Below, piece by piece: positions 34,210 to 58,916 of a DNA stretch of 64,000 nucleotides. The position numbers were made by a program, and so were the translations under genes. Origin of the DNA: Acidiphilium rubrum (lineage in GTDB: Bacteria > Pseudomonadota > Alphaproteobacteria > Acetobacterales > Acetobacteraceae); NCBI RefSeq assembly GCF_900156265.1, contig NZ_FTNE01000002.1, positions 1 through 64,000 on the forward strand, in the 5' to 3' direction. The notes under the pieces are model-generated. The model was not told the origin of the DNA. It saw nothing but the letters and a program-made list of their open reading frames with translations, and ran no database searches. The stretch's first letter is position 1. Each line of letters begins with the position of its first letter.

Positions 34210-34370
34210 GGAGGTAAGGAAGCGCTTCTTTTTTGAAAAAAAGAAGCAAAAAACTTTCTGACTCTGGGGCACGGGCGTTTTCACGGGCACGGGCCCAAAT
34301 CAACAAAGTTTTTTTTGCTTCTTTTTTGTTCACAAAAAAGAAGATCCTTCCCTGTCCTTCCCTACCCTCC
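34210..34370. repeat. AT-rich palindromic element (family 2)
   Basis: Two 11-bp hairpins face each other: GCTTCTTTTTT/AAAAAAGAAGC at 34225-34248 and CTTCTTTTTTG/CAAAAAAGAAG at 34318-34343. The inner flanks GCAAAAAACTTT (34247-34258) and AAAGTTTTTTTTGC (34306-34319) are themselves inverted. The unit lies between the amidase stop and a small gene. Each hairpin plus its poly-T would act as a terminator. A purine-rich run outside each arm (GGGGAGGTAAGGAAG and, reversed, GGGAGGGTAGGGAAGG) is also similar. Confidence 0.6.
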
Positions 34371-42439: not shown

Positions 42440-43768
42440 ATGAAACGCCGCCTCCTGATCGCCGCAGCGCCGGTAACCGCGCTCGCCGCCGCCACCGCCC
42501 GCGCCGCCGCACCCGTGACCATCACGCTCTGGCACGCCATGGCCGGCGCGCTCGGGCAGAAACTCCAGGCGACCGTCGATGCATTCAACAAAAGCCAGAC
42601 GGCCTATCAGGTCGATGCCGTCTATAAAGGCACCTACCCGCAGGTGCTGACCGCGACCATCGCCGCCTGGCGCGCCGGCAAAGCCCCCTCGATTGCGCAG
42701 GTGTTCGACGTTGGCACCGCCGACATGCTCGGCGCCGGGCGTGCCGTGGTCGATGTCTATAAACTCGCGGCCATGACCGGCGTCGCCATCGACCCCGCCA
42801 CCTACATCCCCGCCGTGCGGGGCTACTACAGCCTCAATGACGGCAAGATGGGTGCAGCACCCTTCAACTCCTCCACCGCAACCATGTGGATCAATGAAGA
42901 CGTCTTCGAGAAAGCCGGGCTCGACCCCAAAATGTCCCTCGCCACCTGGGACGACGTGATCAAGGCCGCCCGCGCCATCAAAGCCCGCAACGCCGCACCC
43001 ATCCCGGTGATGACCTCCTGGCCGACCTGGGTGCATTTCGAGCAGTTCGCCGCCATCCACAATGTCGAATACGCAACGCTGAACGATGGCTTCGGCGGCC
43101 CGAAACCCACCCTCAAAATCGACACCGCCCCTTTCGTCAAAAACCTCGGCACCATCCTGTCGATGCAGAAGGAAGGCCTGTTCAAATACCAGGGTCGCGA
43201 CGGCGCCCCCAGCCCGATCTTCTACGCCGGCAAAGCCGGTATCACCTTCGACAGTTCCTCGATCTACGGGCAGCTCAAACAGAGCGCAAAATTCAAATTC
43301 AACGATACCTACCTGCCCTACCACCCCTCGATCATCAAATCGCCGATCAACTCGATCATCGGCGGCGCCGCCTTTTGGGCCATGACCGCACCCGATCGCA
43401 CCAAACCCGAATACACGGCGGTGGCACATTTCTTCAACTTCATCAGCCAGCCCGGCAACGATTCCGGTTGGTCCGAAGCCACCGGCTATATCCCCGTCAC
43501 CACCGCCGGTAACGCACTGATCACCAAACAAGGCTTCTACACCGCCAACCCCGGGACCAATATCGCGGTCGAACAACTCACCCGCACCCAACCCACCAAC
43601 TTCTCGCGCGGCATCCGCCTCGGTGGCATGCCCGAAGTGCGCGTTATCATCGAAGAAGAATGGGAACGCGCCATCCAGAATAACACACCAGCCAAAACCG
43701 CCCTCGCCACCGCCCAACACCGCGCCCAAGCCGTGATCAACCGGTTCGCCCAATCCATCCACGCCTGA
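42440..43768 (+). CDS. ugpB: sn-Glycerol-3-phosphate ABC transporter binding protein
   Basis: A 442-residue periplasmic binding protein with signal peptide ending ATARAAA at about residue 23. VTITLWHAMAGALGQKLQATV, AAPFNSSTATMWINEDVFEKAGLDP and TSWPTWVHFEQFAAIHN match UgpB. It imports glycerol-3-phosphate or glycerophosphodiesters as phosphate source. First of ugpB-A-E-C, behind a PHO-box array. Between it and ugpA lies a large palindromic element. Confidence 0.88.
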   Translation: MKRRLLIAAAPVTALAAATARAAAPVTITLWHAMAGALGQKLQATVDAFNKSQTAYQVDAVYKGTYPQVLTATIAAWRAGKAPSIAQVFDVGTADMLGAGRAVVDVYKLAAMTGVAIDPATYIPAVRGYYSLNDGKMGAAPFNSSTATMWINEDVFEKAGLDPKMSLATWDDVIKAARAIKARNAAPIPVMTSWPTWVHFEQFAAIHNVEYATLNDGFGGPKPTLKIDTAPFVKNLGTILSMQKEGLFKYQGRDGAPSPIFYAGKAGITFDSSSIYGQLKQSAKFKFNDTYLPYHPSIIKSPINSIIGGAAFWAMTAPDRTKPEYTAVAHFFNFISQPGNDSGWSEATGYIPVTTAGNALITKQGFYTANPGTNIAVEQLTRTQPTNFSRGIRLGGMPEVRVIIEEEWERAIQNNTPAKTALATAQHRAQAVINRFAQSIHA

Positions 43769-44032
43769 TGCCGGGGGGTGGGGGTGGCGTGTTGGAAGGA
43801 AAGAAAGGCCAGGGGGCTTTGCCCCCTGGACCCCCACTAAGGGCGGAGCCCTTAGAACCCGCTAGTTTTAGGCAAGGGGAGGGCGCTGCCTCGGTGGTTC
43901 CGTCGATCTGGCCTGGACAGCCCTCCCCTTGCCTAAAACTAATGGATTTTAAAGGCTCCGCCTTTAACGGGGTCCAGGGGCAGAGCCCCTGGCCTTCCTT
44001 GCTTCCAACACGCCACCCCCACACCCCGGCAT
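43768..44032. repeat. Palindromic element copy A (between ugpB and ugpA)
   Basis: A palindrome of about 265 bp. The shared core (about 43805-43997) holds four small hairpins and a perfect 21-bp stem (TAGTTTTAGGCAAGGGGAGG with its complement at 43921-43941) around a loop CGCTGCCTCGG...CTGGACAG. Outside the core, arms 43768-43798 and 44002-44032 are inverted repeats, 30 of 31 positions identical. The arms begin in the ugpB stop codon and end just before ugpA. It may act as a hairpin terminator or RNA-stability element lowering ugpAEC expression. Confidence 0.85.
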
Positions 44033-45752: not shown

Positions 45753-46825
45753 TGGCGACGCTCGAACTCCAATCCCTGCAAAAAACCTTCGGCGCCACCA
45801 CCGTGCTGCACGGGATCGATCTCGCGCTGGCCGATGGCGAAATGCTGGTGATCGTCGGCGCGTCCGGCTGCGGCAAATCCACCCTGCTCCGCCTGGTCGC
45901 CGGCCTCGAATCACCGAGCGCCGGGCGCATCCTGCTCGATGGCGCGGATATTACCGACCGCGATCCCTCGCGTCGCGACATCGCCATGGTGTTCCAGAAT
46001 TACGCGCTGTATCCGCACATGTCGGTGTTCGACAACATGGGCTACGGACTGAAACTGAAAGGTCTCGACCGCGCCACGATCAAATCGAAAATCGAAATCG
46101 CCGCAGAAACGCTGGGATTGACCCCCCTGCTTGCCCGCAAGCCACGCGAACTCTCGGGCGGTCAGCGCCAGCGTGTCGCCATGGGCCGCGCCATCGTGCG
46201 TGAACCCAAATTATTCCTGTTCGACGAACCGCTCTCCAACCTCGATGCCAAACTCCGCGTCCAGGTTCGCGCCGATATCCGCAAGCTACAGAAACGCCTG
46301 AATATCACGAGCCTCTACGTCACCCACGACCAGGTCGAAGCCATGACCCTGGCCGACCGGCTGATCGTGATGCACCAAGGTCGCGCCGCCCAGATCGCCA
46401 CCCCGATCGAAGTGTTCGACAAGCCGGCGACCATGTACGTCGCAAGCTTCATCGGCGAGCCGGCGATGAATTTCTGCGCCGCCACAATCACCCAGAATGG
46501 CCGCGCCGCCAAACTCGACGCCGGCCCCGAACTCACCTTCACCGCTGGCCCCCGCACCGCGCCCGATGGCACAAAAATCACCCTCGGCATCCGCGCCCAA
46601 CACGCCACCATCGCATCCGGGCCCAACAGCATCCCCCTCGCCGTCGAATTCGCCGAACCGCTGGGCTCGGAAACCCTGCTGCACGGCACCCTGCCCAATA
46701 CCACCCCCTTCACCCTCCGCGTCACCAGCCCAGCACCAACCGACCACACAATCCCCATCGAAATCCCGCCCCACCACATCCACGTCTTCGACCCCACAAC
46801 AGGCACCCGCATGGACCCGGCATAA
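45752..46825 (+). CDS. ugpC: sn-Glycerol-3-phosphate ABC transporter ATP-binding protein UgpC
   Basis: A 357-residue ATPase of the MalK/UgpC type: Walker A GASGCGKST, signature LSGGQRQRVAMGRAIV, Walker B LFLFDEPLSNLDAKLR, switch TSLYVTHDQVEAM and a C-terminal TOBE-type regulatory domain (about 240-355). Operon end; no ugpQ follows. Faces tpiA convergently across palindromic element B. Confidence 0.9.
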   Translation: MATLELQSLQKTFGATTVLHGIDLALADGEMLVIVGASGCGKSTLLRLVAGLESPSAGRILLDGADITDRDPSRRDIAMVFQNYALYPHMSVFDNMGYGLKLKGLDRATIKSKIEIAAETLGLTPLLARKPRELSGGQRQRVAMGRAIVREPKLFLFDEPLSNLDAKLRVQVRADIRKLQKRLNITSLYVTHDQVEAMTLADRLIVMHQGRAAQIATPIEVFDKPATMYVASFIGEPAMNFCAATITQNGRAAKLDAGPELTFTAGPRTAPDGTKITLGIRAQHATIASGPNSIPLAVEFAEPLGSETLLHGTLPNTTPFTLRVTSPAPTDHTIPIEIPPHHIHVFDPTTGTRMDPA

Positions 46826-47068
46826 CGGTGGCGGTGCTGAGGTAAGTAAGGCGGGGGGCTTTGCCCCCTCGACCCCCACTAAGGGCGGAGCCCTTAGAAC
46901 CCGCTAGTTTTAGGTAAGGGGAGGGCGCTGCCTCGGTGGTTCCGTCGATCTGGCCTGTGTCGCCCTCCCCTTACCTAAAACTAATGGATTTTAAAGGCTC
47001 CGCCTTTAACGGGGTCCAGGGGCAGAGCCCCTGGCCTTACTTACCTTAGCGCCGCCTCGGCTATGGCC
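46822..47068. repeat. Palindromic element copy B (between ugpC and tpiA)
   Basis: Same core as copy A, at about 46843-47046, with the same loop CGCTGCCTCGG...CTGG. Where copy A has TTTAGGCAAGG and its partner CCTTGCCTAAA, this copy has TTTAGGTAAGG and CCTTACCTAAA: both sides changed so the pair is kept. Outer arms 46830-46852 and 47034-47056 match at 21 of 23 positions but differ from copy A arms. The right arm contains the tpiA stop and last codons. Confidence 0.85.
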
Positions 47069-54222: not shown

Positions 54223-55428
54223 ATGCTGAGCGTCCCTGAAGCCCGCGCGCGGATCCTGGCCCTGCTCGCGCCGACCGGCGGGGAAATCATCCCGCTGGCC
54301 GAAGCCGCCGGGCGCGTGCTGGCCGCCCCGCTCATCGCCCGCCTGACCCAGCCGCCGAACGATGTCTCCGCGATGGATGGCTTCGCCCTGCGCGCGGCGG
54401 ATAGTGTGATCGGCGCGCGGCTGCGCATTATCGGCGCGGCCCCCGCCGGCCACCCTTTCGCCGGATCGGTCCGCCCCGGTGAGGCCGTGCGCCTGTTCAC
54501 CGGCAGCGTGGTGCCCGCAGGCGCCGATTGCATCATCATCCAGGAAGAGGCCGAATACGACGACACCACCGTCACGCTGCGCGAAGCCGGCCTCCCCGGC
54601 AAGCATATCCGCGGCGCCGGACTCGATTTTGCCGCCGGCGACACGCTCCTCAGCCCGGGCCGCCACCTCACCGCGCGCGATATCGGCCTCGCCGCCGCCG
54701 CCAATCACCCCTGGATCACCGTCCACCGCAAACCCGTCATCGCCATCCTCGCCACCGGCGATGAAATCGCGATGCCCGGCGATCCCATCCCCGCGGGCGG
54801 CATCGTCAGCTCCAACTCCCACGCGCTCGCCGCCTTCGTCCGCGCCAACGGCGGCATACCGATCATCCTGCCGATCGCACCCGACGACCGCACCGCCATC
54901 GCCAACGCCGCGGCAAGCGCATCACACGCCGATCTGCTGATCACCACCGGGGGCGCCAGCGTCGGCACGCACGACCTGGTACAAGCCGGCCTGTCCGACA
55001 TCGGGCTCGATGTCGATTTCTGGAAAATCGCGATGCGCCCGGGCAAACCCCTCATGTTCGGGCGGCTCGGCAACCTCCCCGTGCTCGGCCTGCCCGGCAA
55101 CCCGGTTTCGGCCATGATCTGCGCGCTGCTCTTCGCCAAACCCGCGATCGAACGCCTCGCCGGCCTGCCCGGCACCGCACCCTCCACCGATTCGGCCCGC
55201 TGCACCATCGCGCTGTCCGCCAACGATCACCGCGCCGATCACCTCCGCGCCACGATCGACCGTGACGCCGACGGACACTGGACCGTCACCCCCTTCGGCC
55301 CCCAAGACAGCTCAATGCTCCGCCGCCTCGCCCGCGCGGACGCCGTCGTCCTCCGCGCGCCCCACGCCCCCGCCACACCCGCCGGCACGACAGTCTCCAT
55401 CATCCGCCTCGCGGCGTGTGGGCTTTAG
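54223..55428 (+). CDS. moeA: Molybdopterin molybdenumtransferase MoeA
   Basis: A 401-residue enzyme inserting molybdate into adenylylated molybdopterin. Motifs PPNDVSAMDGFALRAAD, GEAVRLFTGSVVPAGADC, ILATGDEI and TTGGASVGTHDL are present. The last codons (LAACGL and stop) are repeated in inverted orientation on the far side of the adjacent palindromic element. Confidence 0.93.
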   Translation: MLSVPEARARILALLAPTGGEIIPLAEAAGRVLAAPLIARLTQPPNDVSAMDGFALRAADSVIGARLRIIGAAPAGHPFAGSVRPGEAVRLFTGSVVPAGADCIIIQEEAEYDDTTVTLREAGLPGKHIRGAGLDFAAGDTLLSPGRHLTARDIGLAAAANHPWITVHRKPVIAILATGDEIAMPGDPIPAGGIVSSNSHALAAFVRANGGIPIILPIAPDDRTAIANAAASASHADLLITTGGASVGTHDLVQAGLSDIGLDVDFWKIAMRPGKPLMFGRLGNLPVLGLPGNPVSAMICALLFAKPAIERLAGLPGTAPSTDSARCTIALSANDHRADHLRATIDRDADGHWTVTPFGPQDSSMLRRLARADAVVLRAPHAPATPAGTTVSIIRLAACGL

Positions 55429-55711
55429 GGCCAAGCGCCGGGTGGGGCGGCGGCTTGGGTTAGGAAGACCAGGGGCTCTGCCCCTGGACCCCGTTAAAGG
55501 CGGAGCCTTTAAAATCCATTAGTTTTAGGCAAGGGGAGGGCTGTCCAGGCCAGACCCGCGACAAGTGCGAGGCAGCGCCCTCCCCTTGCCTAAAACTAGC
55601 GGGTTCTAAGGGCTGAGCCCTTAGCGGGGGTCCAGGGGGCAGAGCCCCTTGGCCTTACTGACTCAAAGCGTCATCCCACCCGGCGCTTAGCCCTAAAGCC
55701 CGCACGCCGCG
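55410..55711. repeat. Palindromic element copy C (moeA-amidase intergenic, inverted core)
   Basis: Core at about 55463-55660 is the copy A/B core in the opposite orientation, with the loop ends GTCCAGGCCAGA...GAGGCAGCG kept but the loop centre different. Outer arms 55410-55446 and 55675-55711 are inverted repeats matching at 35 of 37 positions. The left arm contains the final codons of moeA (CGGCGTGTGGGCTTTAG); the right arm carries the reverse complement of the same sequence. Confidence 0.85.
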
Positions 55712-55718
55712 CGGCGGG

Positions 55719-57182
55719 TTATGCGACGTCGTGGAAGCCTGGGGTGGTGCTGAGTGTGGGGGCCGTGGTGAGTTTGGCGATGTCGGGGGTGGGGCGGTTG
55801 AGGTTTGGGTTATCGGCGCACAGGGTTTCGATCGCGCTGGCTACGGCGAGGGTTTTGGCATCGGTATGGCGGGCGGTGATGATTTGGACGCCGAACGGCA
55901 TGCCATCGGCATCGCGCCCCAGTGGCAGCGACAGCGAGGGGTGGCCGGTGAGTGTTACGGCGTAGGCCAGGGCCAGCCAGTGGTAGTAGGATTGGGTTGC
56001 GACGCCGTCGATCTGGGCGGGGAACAATTCGCTCCAGGGGCGGGGCGTGATGGTCACGCTGGGCGCGATGAGCACGTCGTATTGGCCGAAAAACTGTTGC
56101 CATGCTTGGTATATTCGGGTCTGGATCATCAATGCGCGCGCGACATCGGTCGCGCTGTAGCGCAAGCCTTCCTCGACATTGGTGCGCACGTTCGGACCCA
56201 GCCGCTCTGGGTTGGTCTGGTAGGTCGCGCCGAACCCGGCGAGGAAATTGACCGCTCGCAGAATGGCGAACGCCTCATCCGCGCCGGCGCAATCGGGTGT
56301 CGCGGCCTCGGCCGCACCGAACAGCGGCGCCAGCAGGGCGGTCTTGGCGGCGAAGGCCGCGCGGACCGCCTTTGCGGTCGGCGCGAAGCCGAAGTCCGGC
56401 GTGAACGCAACACGCAGCGTCCCGAGGTCGACCGTTTGCGGTTGCAGCGCTGGGTTGGGAAACGCCAGCATATCGCGCGTATCGTAATGCGCGATTGCGC
56501 CGAGCATCAAGGCGAGATCCGGCACGTTGCGCGCCATTGGCCCCAGGACCGACAGGGCCGATGACCCGAGCAGCCGTTTTTCGGACGGCACCAGCCCCGC
56601 CGAAGGCCGCATGCCGACAATGCCGCAGAACGATGCCGGGTTGCGCAAGCTGCCGCCCATATCCGAACCGGTCGCGAGCGGCACCATTCCGGTCGCCAGC
56701 GCCACCGCCGACCCGCCGGATGAACCGGCCGCCGATTTCATCGGATCGAACGGGTTGCCGGTCGCGCCATACACCGCGTTACGCGTATTTGCGCCGGCGC
56801 CGAACTCCGGCGTGTTGGTCTTGCCCAGCACGATGCCGCCGGCACGACGGATATCCGCCACCAGGCGCTGATCCGCCTTCGGCACGTGATCGCGGAACAT
56901 CACGCTGCCATAGGTGGTGCGCAGCCCCTCGGTATCTTCGAGATCCTTGACGCCGATCGGCAGGCCGTGCAGCGGACCGATCGCACCGCCCGCCATCACC
57001 GCCGCCTCGGCCACGATCGCCGCCGCCCGGGCACGCTCGAAATCGCGCGCGACCATCGCATTCACCGCATGATCGACCGCCTCGATCCGCGCAATGCAAC
57101 TGTCCAACAGCTCAACCGGCGAAAGCCGCCGCCCGCCGATCAGGTGCCGCGCTTGGGTCGCTGTCAGGTCACACGCTTGCAT
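55719..57182 (-). CDS. Amidase (amidase signature family)
   Basis: A 487-residue amidase signature enzyme. The Lys is in PIGVKDLED, cis-Ser in SAAGSSGGSA and the Ser nucleophile in GSDMGGSLRNPASFCG. Substrate unknown; GatA-like length but no gatB or gatC beside it, so not the tRNA amidotransferase. It lies downstream of the gamma-glutamyltransferase gene on the same strand, separated by palindromic element D. Confidence 0.83.
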   Translation of the reverse strand: MQACDLTATQARHLIGGRRLSPVELLDSCIARIEAVDHAVNAMVARDFERARAAAIVAEAAVMAGGAIGPLHGLPIGVKDLEDTEGLRTTYGSVMFRDHVPKADQRLVADIRRAGGIVLGKTNTPEFGAGANTRNAVYGATGNPFDPMKSAAGSSGGSAVALATGMVPLATGSDMGGSLRNPASFCGIVGMRPSAGLVPSEKRLLGSSALSVLGPMARNVPDLALMLGAIAHYDTRDMLAFPNPALQPQTVDLGTLRVAFTPDFGFAPTAKAVRAAFAAKTALLAPLFGAAEAATPDCAGADEAFAILRAVNFLAGFGATYQTNPERLGPNVRTNVEEGLRYSATDVARALMIQTRIYQAWQQFFGQYDVLIAPSVTITPRPWSELFPAQIDGVATQSYYHWLALAYAVTLTGHPSLSLPLGRDADGMPFGVQIITARHTDAKTLAVASAIETLCADNPNLNRPTPDIAKLTTAPTLSTTPGFHDVA

Positions 57183-57194
57183 GGAAAGGTCCTC

Positions 57195-57331
57195 GGTTGG
57201 AGATTGAAGGAAGGCGGGGGGCTCTGCCCCCTCGACCCCCGCTAAGGGCGGAGCCGAAGGTTCCGGCGATGCTCTTCATCGCTGGAATGGCTCCGGAGGG
57301 AGAGCCCCTGGCCTTCCTTAATACCCAAGCG
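57195..57331. repeat. Palindromic element copy D, short divergent variant
   Basis: A shorter element between ggt and the amidase gene. It keeps the outer hairpins GGGGGGCTCTGCCCCCTC and GAGCCCCTGGCC, but the core 21-bp stem is replaced by an unrelated one (GGAGCC...CGATG, CATCG...GGCTCC). Outer flanks GGTTGGAGATTGAAGGAAGGC and, reversed, GCTTGGGTATTAAGGAAGGC are similar; the latter includes the last codons and stop of the transferase. Confidence 0.65.
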
Positions 57332-58916
57332 CGCACCCATCCTTCCGAGGGTCTGACCCGCCCGCGAGCACGCCGCTCGTCGGATCGATCAGGATTGCCT
57401 GGCCGCCGCCGTGTGGTCGGGCGGTGGGTGCGACGGTGTGGCCGCGCTGGATCAGGCCATCGATGGTTGCCTGCGGAAAGGTCGGTTCGAGTTCGACGAC
57501 GCCGGCGTAGGGAAACGCGCGTGGCAGGTCGAGCGATTGCTGGACGTCGAGGTTATAGTGCCGCAGGTTGGTGAGGAACCATGACTGGCCCATCGGCTGA
57601 TAGTGGCCGCCCATGACGCCGAACGGCATGATCGCGTGGCCATTGCGTGTGGCCATGCCGGGGATGATCGTGTGCATCGGCCGCTTGCGGGGGGCGATGC
57701 AGTTGGGGTGCCCGCGTTCGAGCCGGAAGCCGAGGCCGCGATTATGGAGGATCACACCGGTGTTCCCGGCCAGAATGCCCGAGCCGAAATTCTCGAAGGT
57801 GGAGTTGATGAACGAGCAGGCATTCCCCTCCTCATCGACGACGCAGAGATAGACGGTGTCGCGGTGGGCCGGGAGTAGAGCCTCGCCGGCGCGCGGCATG
57901 TCCTTGATGGTTTGATCGTCTTTGATCAGGTTGCGCAGCGACGTGAGGTACGCATCGCTCAAAAGGTGCTCGACCGGAACCGACGCGTGCTCGGGGTCGG
58001 CCAGCAGGGCGTCGCGATCGCGATAGACCAGGCGCGCCGCCTCGATATGCCGATGGACACGGATCGGGCCGAGCGGCCCATCCGGCGCCGGGCCGAAGCC
58101 TTCGAGAATCCCCAGCAGCATCAACGCGAGTATGCCCGAACCGTTCGGCGGGCATTCCCAGATTGTGAGACCGTCGAAATCGCGCTGGATCGGCGTGACG
58201 AATTTTGCGGCCGTGCGGCCCTCGGCAAAATCGGCCTCGGTATGCAGGCCGCCGCGGCTGCGCAGTTCCGCCACCATGCCGGCGGCGATCGGCCCCTCGT
58301 AGAACGCCCGCGCGCCTTGTGCGGCGATCGCGCGCAGCGTCGCCGCGAGTTCCGGCTGTTGGATGATGGTGCCGACGCCGGGTGCCGCACCGTTCGGCAA
58401 CAATGCGTGGGCGCCGGTCTTGCGCAGCTTGTCGGCGGTGTGCGCCCAATCGGCGGCGACGCGCGGTGAAACCGCAAATCCGGCCTCGGCGTAATGGATC
58501 GCGGGCGCCAGCGCCGCGGCGAGGCCACGCTTGCCATGAGCCTCGAGCAAGGTCTCCCATGCGCCGACCGCGCCTGGCACGGTCACACCGTGCGGCGAGG
58601 TCGAATCGAGGCTGGTGATGCCATGCGCCTCGTAATGATCGATCGTGGCGGCGGCTGGTGCGCGGCCGGAACCGTTGAGCGCGATCACCTCGGCGCTGCC
58701 GGCCTTTTTATAGAGGCAGAAGCAATCGCCGCCGATACCGGTCGATTGCGGTTCGACCACGCCGAGCAAGGCGGCGGCGGTGACGGCGGCATCGAGCGCA
58801 TTGCCGCCGGCGCGCAGGGCATCGAGTGCGGCAAGTGTTGCAACCGGCATCGAGGTCGCGGCCATGGCCCGCCCGGCATAGACGGCGCTGCGGCCGGGTT
58901 GATGAAAATCGCGCAT
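57318..58916 (-). CDS. Gamma-glutamyltransferase family protein, cytoplasmic
   Basis: A 532-residue Ntn-hydrolase. HRDTVYLCVVDEEGNACSF provides the Thr that becomes the N-terminal nucleophile after autocleavage near residue 355. GIGGDCFCLYKK and FGVMGGHYQPMGQ are conserved. There is no signal peptide, unlike periplasmic E. coli Ggt. Substrate could be glutathione or other gamma-glutamyl or acyl compounds. Confidence 0.83.
   Translation of the reverse strand: MRDFHQPGRSAVYAGRAMAATSMPVATLAALDALRAGGNALDAAVTAAALLGVVEPQSTGIGGDCFCLYKKAGSAEVIALNGSGRAPAAATIDHYEAHGITSLDSTSPHGVTVPGAVGAWETLLEAHGKRGLAAALAPAIHYAEAGFAVSPRVAADWAHTADKLRKTGAHALLPNGAAPGVGTIIQQPELAATLRAIAAQGARAFYEGPIAAGMVAELRSRGGLHTEADFAEGRTAAKFVTPIQRDFDGLTIWECPPNGSGILALMLLGILEGFGPAPDGPLGPIRVHRHIEAARLVYRDRDALLADPEHASVPVEHLLSDAYLTSLRNLIKDDQTIKDMPRAGEALLPAHRDTVYLCVVDEEGNACSFINSTFENFGSGILAGNTGVILHNRGLGFRLERGHPNCIAPRKRPMHTIIPGMATRNGHAIMPFGVMGGHYQPMGQSWFLTNLRHYNLDVQQSLDLPRAFPYAGVVELEPTFPQATIDGLIQRGHTVAPTARPHGGGQAILIDPTSGVLAGGSDPRKDGCALGY

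Follow-up and report, generated by a model that had tools for sequence, protein, structure and literature searches.

Many copies of a dispersed palindromic repeat family in Acidiphilium carry locus-specific matched arms, probably through template switching

An intergenic palindrome in the genome of Acidiphilium rubrum raises the question of how the end of one gene can come to lie, inverted, on the far side of a repeat whose core is common to many loci. The palindrome (copy C, 55410-55711) lies in the 64-kb stretch of DNA analysed here, referred to as the window, which was taken from a 3.98 Mb draft genome (G000), and it is one member of a repeat family dispersed in that genome. It is situated between moeA (54223..55428, + strand; Pfam MoeA_N, MoCF_biosynth and MoeA_C) and a convergent amidase gene (55719..57182, - strand; assigned by Pfam). 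The shared core (55462..55659), made up of an outer stem, two 53-nt half-arms that are 83% complementary and a loop of ~35 nt, is bordered by a locus-specific left arm (55398..55461), which holds the last codons and stop of moeA, and by a right arm (55660..55723), the arms being delimited by repeat search and arm scoring and all three features given on the + strand. The last codons and TAG stop of moeA (55410..55428, + strand), presumed from the sequence to be the template, recur inverted on the amidase side (55693..55711, - strand), and this inverted end has no counterpart beside the amidase gene of G003, the nearest relative compared with G000. A preliminary description of this DNA had reported pairing at 35 of 37 positions between 55410-55446 and 55675-55711, and the sequence bears this out. 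The repeat search returned arms of 78 nt (55398-55475 and 55646-55723, 81% complementary) that include a little of the core, and the last 40 nt of moeA scored 24 against the amidase-side flank, as against a mean of 7.8 and a maximum of 12 for 96 flanks of other copies. The predicted fold is a single hairpin (-139.9 kcal/mol, z -17.8) that begins in the final codons of moeA and reaches the amidase gene's end.

A first search of G000, in which 40 of 112 first-look candidates were scored, placed the family at at least about 40 places, and the stretches of this genome that were examined held 54 distinct elements, full or partial. Matches to the family occurred in 13 of the 40 genomes searched (G000 counted), ten of them within Acidiphilium. 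The copies have in common a core of ~198 bp, an imperfect palindrome composed of an outer stem of GGGGCTCTGCCCC-like units, two half-arms of ~53 nt (83-85% complementary) and a loop of ~35 nt; outside this core the arms are private to each locus. The elements are intergenic and mostly adjoin the 3' end of a gene. With genes called by a simple hexamer script, convergent genes flanked 27 of the 53 elements with callable neighbours; in the stretches examined as a whole, 134 of 678 pairs of adjacent genes were convergent. The family had no match above the gathering score in Rfam, by which only RNase P and two tRNAs were matched in the window, nor any in a plasmid collection from which near records may be absent, and dispersal by plasmids was rejected on that search. 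Several elements coincide with gene-order breakpoints between G000 and G003, namely L014 and L017 against L048 (3145-3228), and copies C and D against L037, L047 and L050.

The left arm of each copy was compared by local score with its own right arm and with the arms of other copies, derangements serving as the null. For 49 copies of G000 the own-arm score was 23.2 against 9.6 across copies; the own arm was the best in its row for 44 of them, 34 exceeded the cross-copy 99th percentile, and none of 5000 derangements exceeded 11.6. The 41 hand-anchored copies gave 24.9 against 9.5 (own best in row for 38), and removal of the inner 30 nt left a score of 13.1 against 8.5, with a derangement maximum of 10.3 and 12 of 49 copies above the 99th percentile. 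The same was seen in G003 (19.0 against 9.0, n=42, 21 above the cross-copy 99th percentile) and, with part of the copies of these and other further genomes taken in, in G011 (18.4 against 8.3, n=17, 11 above) and G012 (18.3 against 7.6, n=10, 8 above). Thus most G000 copies have an inverted flank as the preliminary description had claimed, while its wording that each element does so was too strong, since 15 of 49 copies did not exceed the 99th percentile and five of the 54 elements, short or weak (score <120, copy D included), stood outside the arm, coding-end and cross-locus comparisons. Copies free of flank inversion, which had been named in advance as evidence against the reading, exist beside a matched majority in G000.

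The further claim that arms are unrelated between copies was nearly right, the departures from it being a common G/T-rich composition and an inner AAGNAAGGCC. Arm pairs from different loci slightly exceeded composition shuffles (mean 19.6 against 16.5). With three copies that have a common mini-hairpin set apart, five cross-locus pairs scored 33-38, against a shuffle maximum of 32, where own arms averaged 43; these five look G-rich or have an extra stem in common, unlike parent and daughter, and a carriage of arms between loci was not accepted as their origin. A second dispersed family was also observed, ~120 bp long with AT-rich hairpins at both ends and purine-rich flanks (window 34224-34343; L129 7068-7186; L133 1204-1322; others). 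It showed no matched arms, either in G000 (28 copies, 8.3 against 8.7) or in G003 (13 copies, 8.0 against 8.5), and purine-rich composition was therefore rejected as the cause of the arm match. Matched arms are also unlikely to be an artefact of assembly at loci where two separate assemblies have both the arms and their mismatches in common (e.g. L002, L015).

The other copies in the window differ in strength. Copy A (43768..44032 with its arms, + strand; core about 43802-44000), delimited by repeat search, lies between a solute-binding protein gene, called ugpB in the preliminary description, and an ABC permease gene of the same direction (Pfam); its inverted flank was confirmed as 47 nt (43768-43814 and 43986-44032, 85%) with a local score of 40. 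Copy B (46821..47065, + strand; core about 46842-47056), whose core is flipped relative to G003, lies between genes for an ABC ATPase and triosephosphate isomerase (Pfam). Its inverted tpiA end, reported as a match at 21 of 23 positions, is marginal, as that match counts the shared inner AAGTAAGGC; its weak arms scored 14, the best score across copies being 13, and once the inner 5 nt were removed the two values were 10 and 12. Copy D (57207..57332, + strand), adjoined by a gamma-glutamyltranspeptidase gene (Pfam), consists of an outer stem only, in which a mini-hairpin replaces the core. It has no matched arms, and the inverted flank formerly ascribed to it amounts to a gappy alignment with a score of 14. 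The mini-hairpin module CCAGCGATGAAGAGCATCGCTGG was observed at L114 11060, L125 16327, L132 17790, L139 9882 and at about 57255-57295 in copy D; all four exact matches in the G000 stretches examined lie inside an outer stem of the palindrome family, and near-copies occur in copy D and in copy B of G003.

The matching extends into coding sequence. When the last 30 coding nt of adjacent genes, stop excluded, were scored against the opposite flank of their own element, 69 ends gave 10.3 as against 7.6 across copies; none of 5000 derangements rose above 8.35, and 11 ends exceeded the cross-copy 99th percentile. No such signal was given by convergent pairs at which neither hairpin family occurs, in G000 (94 ends, 6.97 against 7.39, none above) or in G003 (72 ends, 7.64 against 7.28, one above), and an element-free control in which 276 ends were compared only with the end of the opposite gene gave 6.73 against 6.84. 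At copy C the score of the moeA end on the amidase side was 24 in G000. In G003 it was 8; the two genes are separated there, no element adjoins either of them at that end, and the coding end of moeA is conserved. Part of the amidase-side sequence also recurs beside moeA, so that each side of copy C seems, on this comparison of flanks, to have received sequence from the other. At L014 the gene on the left is followed, past its stop, by a repeat of the final codons of the gene on the right. L133 had looked like an unambiguous instance of C-terminal copying; this was weakened, since versions of the left gene in outgroups already have a similar ADID/TDLD motif. At L032 (2526-2711) the G000 flank facing a gene that ends in LPWTQK before its stop reads as an open frame, a candidate gene at most, ending in LAWTRK before its stop; the G003 flank has no such open frame.

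The core itself differs in orientation between assemblies. At 35 syntenic sites of G000 and G003 the core had the same orientation at 16, was flipped in place at 11 and was unclear at two, six sites being excluded as short or low-scoring, which gives 11 flips among 27 scorable sites in draft assemblies where orientation may be misassembled. Flips were seen at two of ten syntenic sites between G011 and G012. G000, G003 and G012 are drafts in which a ~200-bp repeat can be misoriented, and flips seen in them could be assembly errors; the G011 copies lie on one 3.64 Mb contig, its partner G012 being fragmented. Flipped loci have stronger arms (27.0 against 21.8, p 0.03). At L036 the arms were exchanged together with the core out to about 45 nt, and at L030 the core only was flipped, so that the place of crossover differs between these two cases.

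Changes in the arms were followed over 906 columns at 23 loci of G000 and G003, three of 26 loci (B, L008, L010) being left aside as their arms were not automatically cut. Both sides had changed in 54 columns, where about 28 would be expected within loci. In 20 columns the two changes were identical; the expectation was 9.3 to 13.9 (P from 0.0002 to 0.045, according to the transition share), and with transitions dominant the excess is weak (P 0.045). The same left-right difference was kept in both species in 129 of the 906 columns, as against 20 concerted and 13 swapped, and a concerted index was positive at eight loci, negative at seven and near zero at eight. Clusters of changes in one arm for which the other arm gave the template were clearest at L020 and modest overall; L020 and L034 carried multi-base changes, indels among them, on both sides. 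Given the excess of changes on both sides alongside 129 old differences, arm rewriting is episodic; most arm differences are old and stable, which counts against the template-switching reading. At the ugpB-ugpA copy of G011 and G012, the orthologue of copy A, the flanks are 98-99% identical, with near-identity reaching the stop codon, and both arms match within each genome (18 in G011, 14 in G012) and not between the genomes (6 and 7), a difference that could be due to independent replacement or to re-insertion.

Nearly all syntenic elements compared were present in both G000 and G003, and these would therefore predate the split of the two, the shared fraction being overestimated because the stretches were chosen around elements. 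Growth of the family by recent insertion was not seen among the sites compared, with the same choice of stretches. The full core was missing in G003 at four of the 35 syntenic sites (L016, L012, L008 and L010); at L012 an AT-rich hairpin stands in G003 in place of the G000 element. As regards ends of the MITE type, inner ends are common to the copies and outer arms are private. No target-site duplication was found, the syntenic sites having given no clean empty and filled pair from which one could be read.

The explanation that best accounts for these observations, and one we consider probable, is template switching, in which synthesis doubles back at the hairpin so that one arm is rewritten from the other. 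During replication of the ~200-bp imperfect palindrome a single strand would fold at the core; the growing strand would switch template, copy the opposite arm, whether hairpin-primed or between molecules, and then switch back. Tracts extending beyond the core would copy the flanking host sequence in reverse and so give each locus its own matched arms, copying would be limited where the flanking gene cannot be overwritten, and switches in opposite arms would invert the core in place. The preliminary description had suggested reverse copying of the flank by template switching or hairpin-primed synthesis, and this is the best-supported reading, since coding ends are copied, arms change in concert at some loci and cores flip, some copies having no matched arms. 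L014 and L133 are no more than suggestive of short homology at the switch points, a point that counts against this reading. Passages of PMC8604942, on yeast genes and amino acid replacements and with earlier phage and E. coli work cited, give arm homogenisation with spacer inversion as the signature of template switching between inverted-repeat arms, and passages of PMC8794818, which concern RNA genes, indicate that template switching can create and maintain hairpins. The mechanism is thus not new, as it has been described for yeast inverted-repeat arms and for RNA genes.

The main rival for the flips is recombination between the arms, RecA-dependent or by strand annealing and perhaps following SbcCD-type cleavage, which would convert the arms and invert the core. 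The differing crossover places at L036 and L030 fit such exchange, as do the stronger arms at flipped loci, but the arms are short and imperfect, and conversion should not extend past homology, whereas the copied gene ends are unique and lie outside the shared core; recombination thus explains gene-end copying less well and is unlikely overall. We infer that template switching in replication, and not recombination, is the agent. Selection that holds the arms base-paired for the sake of a required RNA hairpin, as a terminator or at an mRNA 3' end, explains less still, as does insertion into older palindromes. The very stable hairpin and the placing of 27 of 53 elements between convergent genes (134 of 678 pairs) agree with selection, and a bidirectional terminator or protection of mRNA 3' ends is a plausible candidate function; yet the core by itself is already a long stem, coding ends are copied, multi-base changes that include indels occur on both sides at L020 and L034, and several copies of the AT-rich family lie between convergent genes with no matched arms. 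Selection is accordingly an improbable source of the arms.

The remaining rival, that elements inserted into pre-existing palindromes such as terminators, whose halves then became the arms, bears on the L016 locus, where empty sites could be compared. Empty sites already carrying the inverted flank had been proposed beforehand as contrary evidence, and here the outcome was divided. In G003, which is coreless at this locus, a short stem with perfect pairing stands at the two stops, as insertion into a palindrome would predict, but its score of 13 is within the range of shuffles (maximum 14). Six outgroups were searched, and in the five whose match covered the junction, all of them lacking the element, the best hairpins scored 7-11 as against a shuffle mean of 9.6 and maximum of 14. 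The stem in G003 could be what a deletion left behind, or else a seed. Arms also exceed the usual length of terminator stems, and convergent pairs lacking both hairpin families show no excess of flank matching (G000, 47 pairs, 7.79 against 7.70; G003, 36 pairs, 8.25 against 7.55), a result that slightly lowers the likelihood of this rival, which we regard as highly improbable. A looser survey of convergent pairs gave a small flank excess (G000, 38 pairs, 9.2 against 6.8; G003, 34 pairs, 8.6 against 6.8), partly attributable to ordinary terminators and to the AT-rich hairpins.

Template switching could have a wider consequence, which we put forward tentatively, as a possibility we do not favour. 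The family may be a self-extending palindrome, whose core seeds hairpins that repeatedly copy gene ends across and flip the core, fast enough that flanks 98-99% identical bear different, internally matched arms, and which would thereby move stops and rewrite C-termini genome-wide. Template switching in inverted repeats is usually met as isolated small events, whereas tens of natural copies would be independent replicates in which its rate, reach and direction could be measured in wild bacteria. The family would also show how extended paired stems and changed gene ends can come about where pairing is not selected for.

Long palindromic repeats of the ERIC/IRU type and bacterial MITEs are dispersed, intergenic, imperfectly palindromic and non-coding. 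The Acidiphilium family is all of these, but differs in that its outer arms are private to the locus and that neither a target duplication nor a transposase was found, the sites giving no clean empty and filled pair. In invertible phase-variation elements a segment between inverted repeats occurs in both orientations, as does the Acidiphilium core, whose inverted repeats in contrast differ at each locus and whose crossover varies in two cases. The REP/BIME/REPIN repeats, the subject of PMC3733652 and PMC3116915, are likewise palindromic and extragenic and sometimes lie between genes of the same direction, as does copy A, but REP units measure 20-40 bp and the Acidiphilium core ~198 bp. For the Y1 transposase domain the search of G000 found one match (PF01797, 26.7 bits, G000:C39:264055-264384, L181), and none of nine exact element motifs occurred in the 3330-nt locus around this single gene, which was rejected as a mover of the family. 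No repeat family with arm-copying behaviour was present among matches in the top-ranked open-access literature, nor any Acidiphilium repeat of this kind among literature matches that took in passages of PMC4549789 and the words sought in PMC2267715; the earlier statement that no described repeat family does this thus stands for that literature and not for the mechanism itself, which is known. The closest likeness is to template-switch (quasipalindrome) mutation, which, in passages of PMC8604942 and PMC8794818, shares arm homogenisation, clustered multi-base changes, spacer inversion and changed amino acids. The cases described there concern single short repeats with short spacers, whereas the Acidiphilium family consists of ~200-bp palindromes dispersed at dozens of sites, with private arms and copied gene ends; in our judgement the repeat family is new and the mutational process behind it is one already known.
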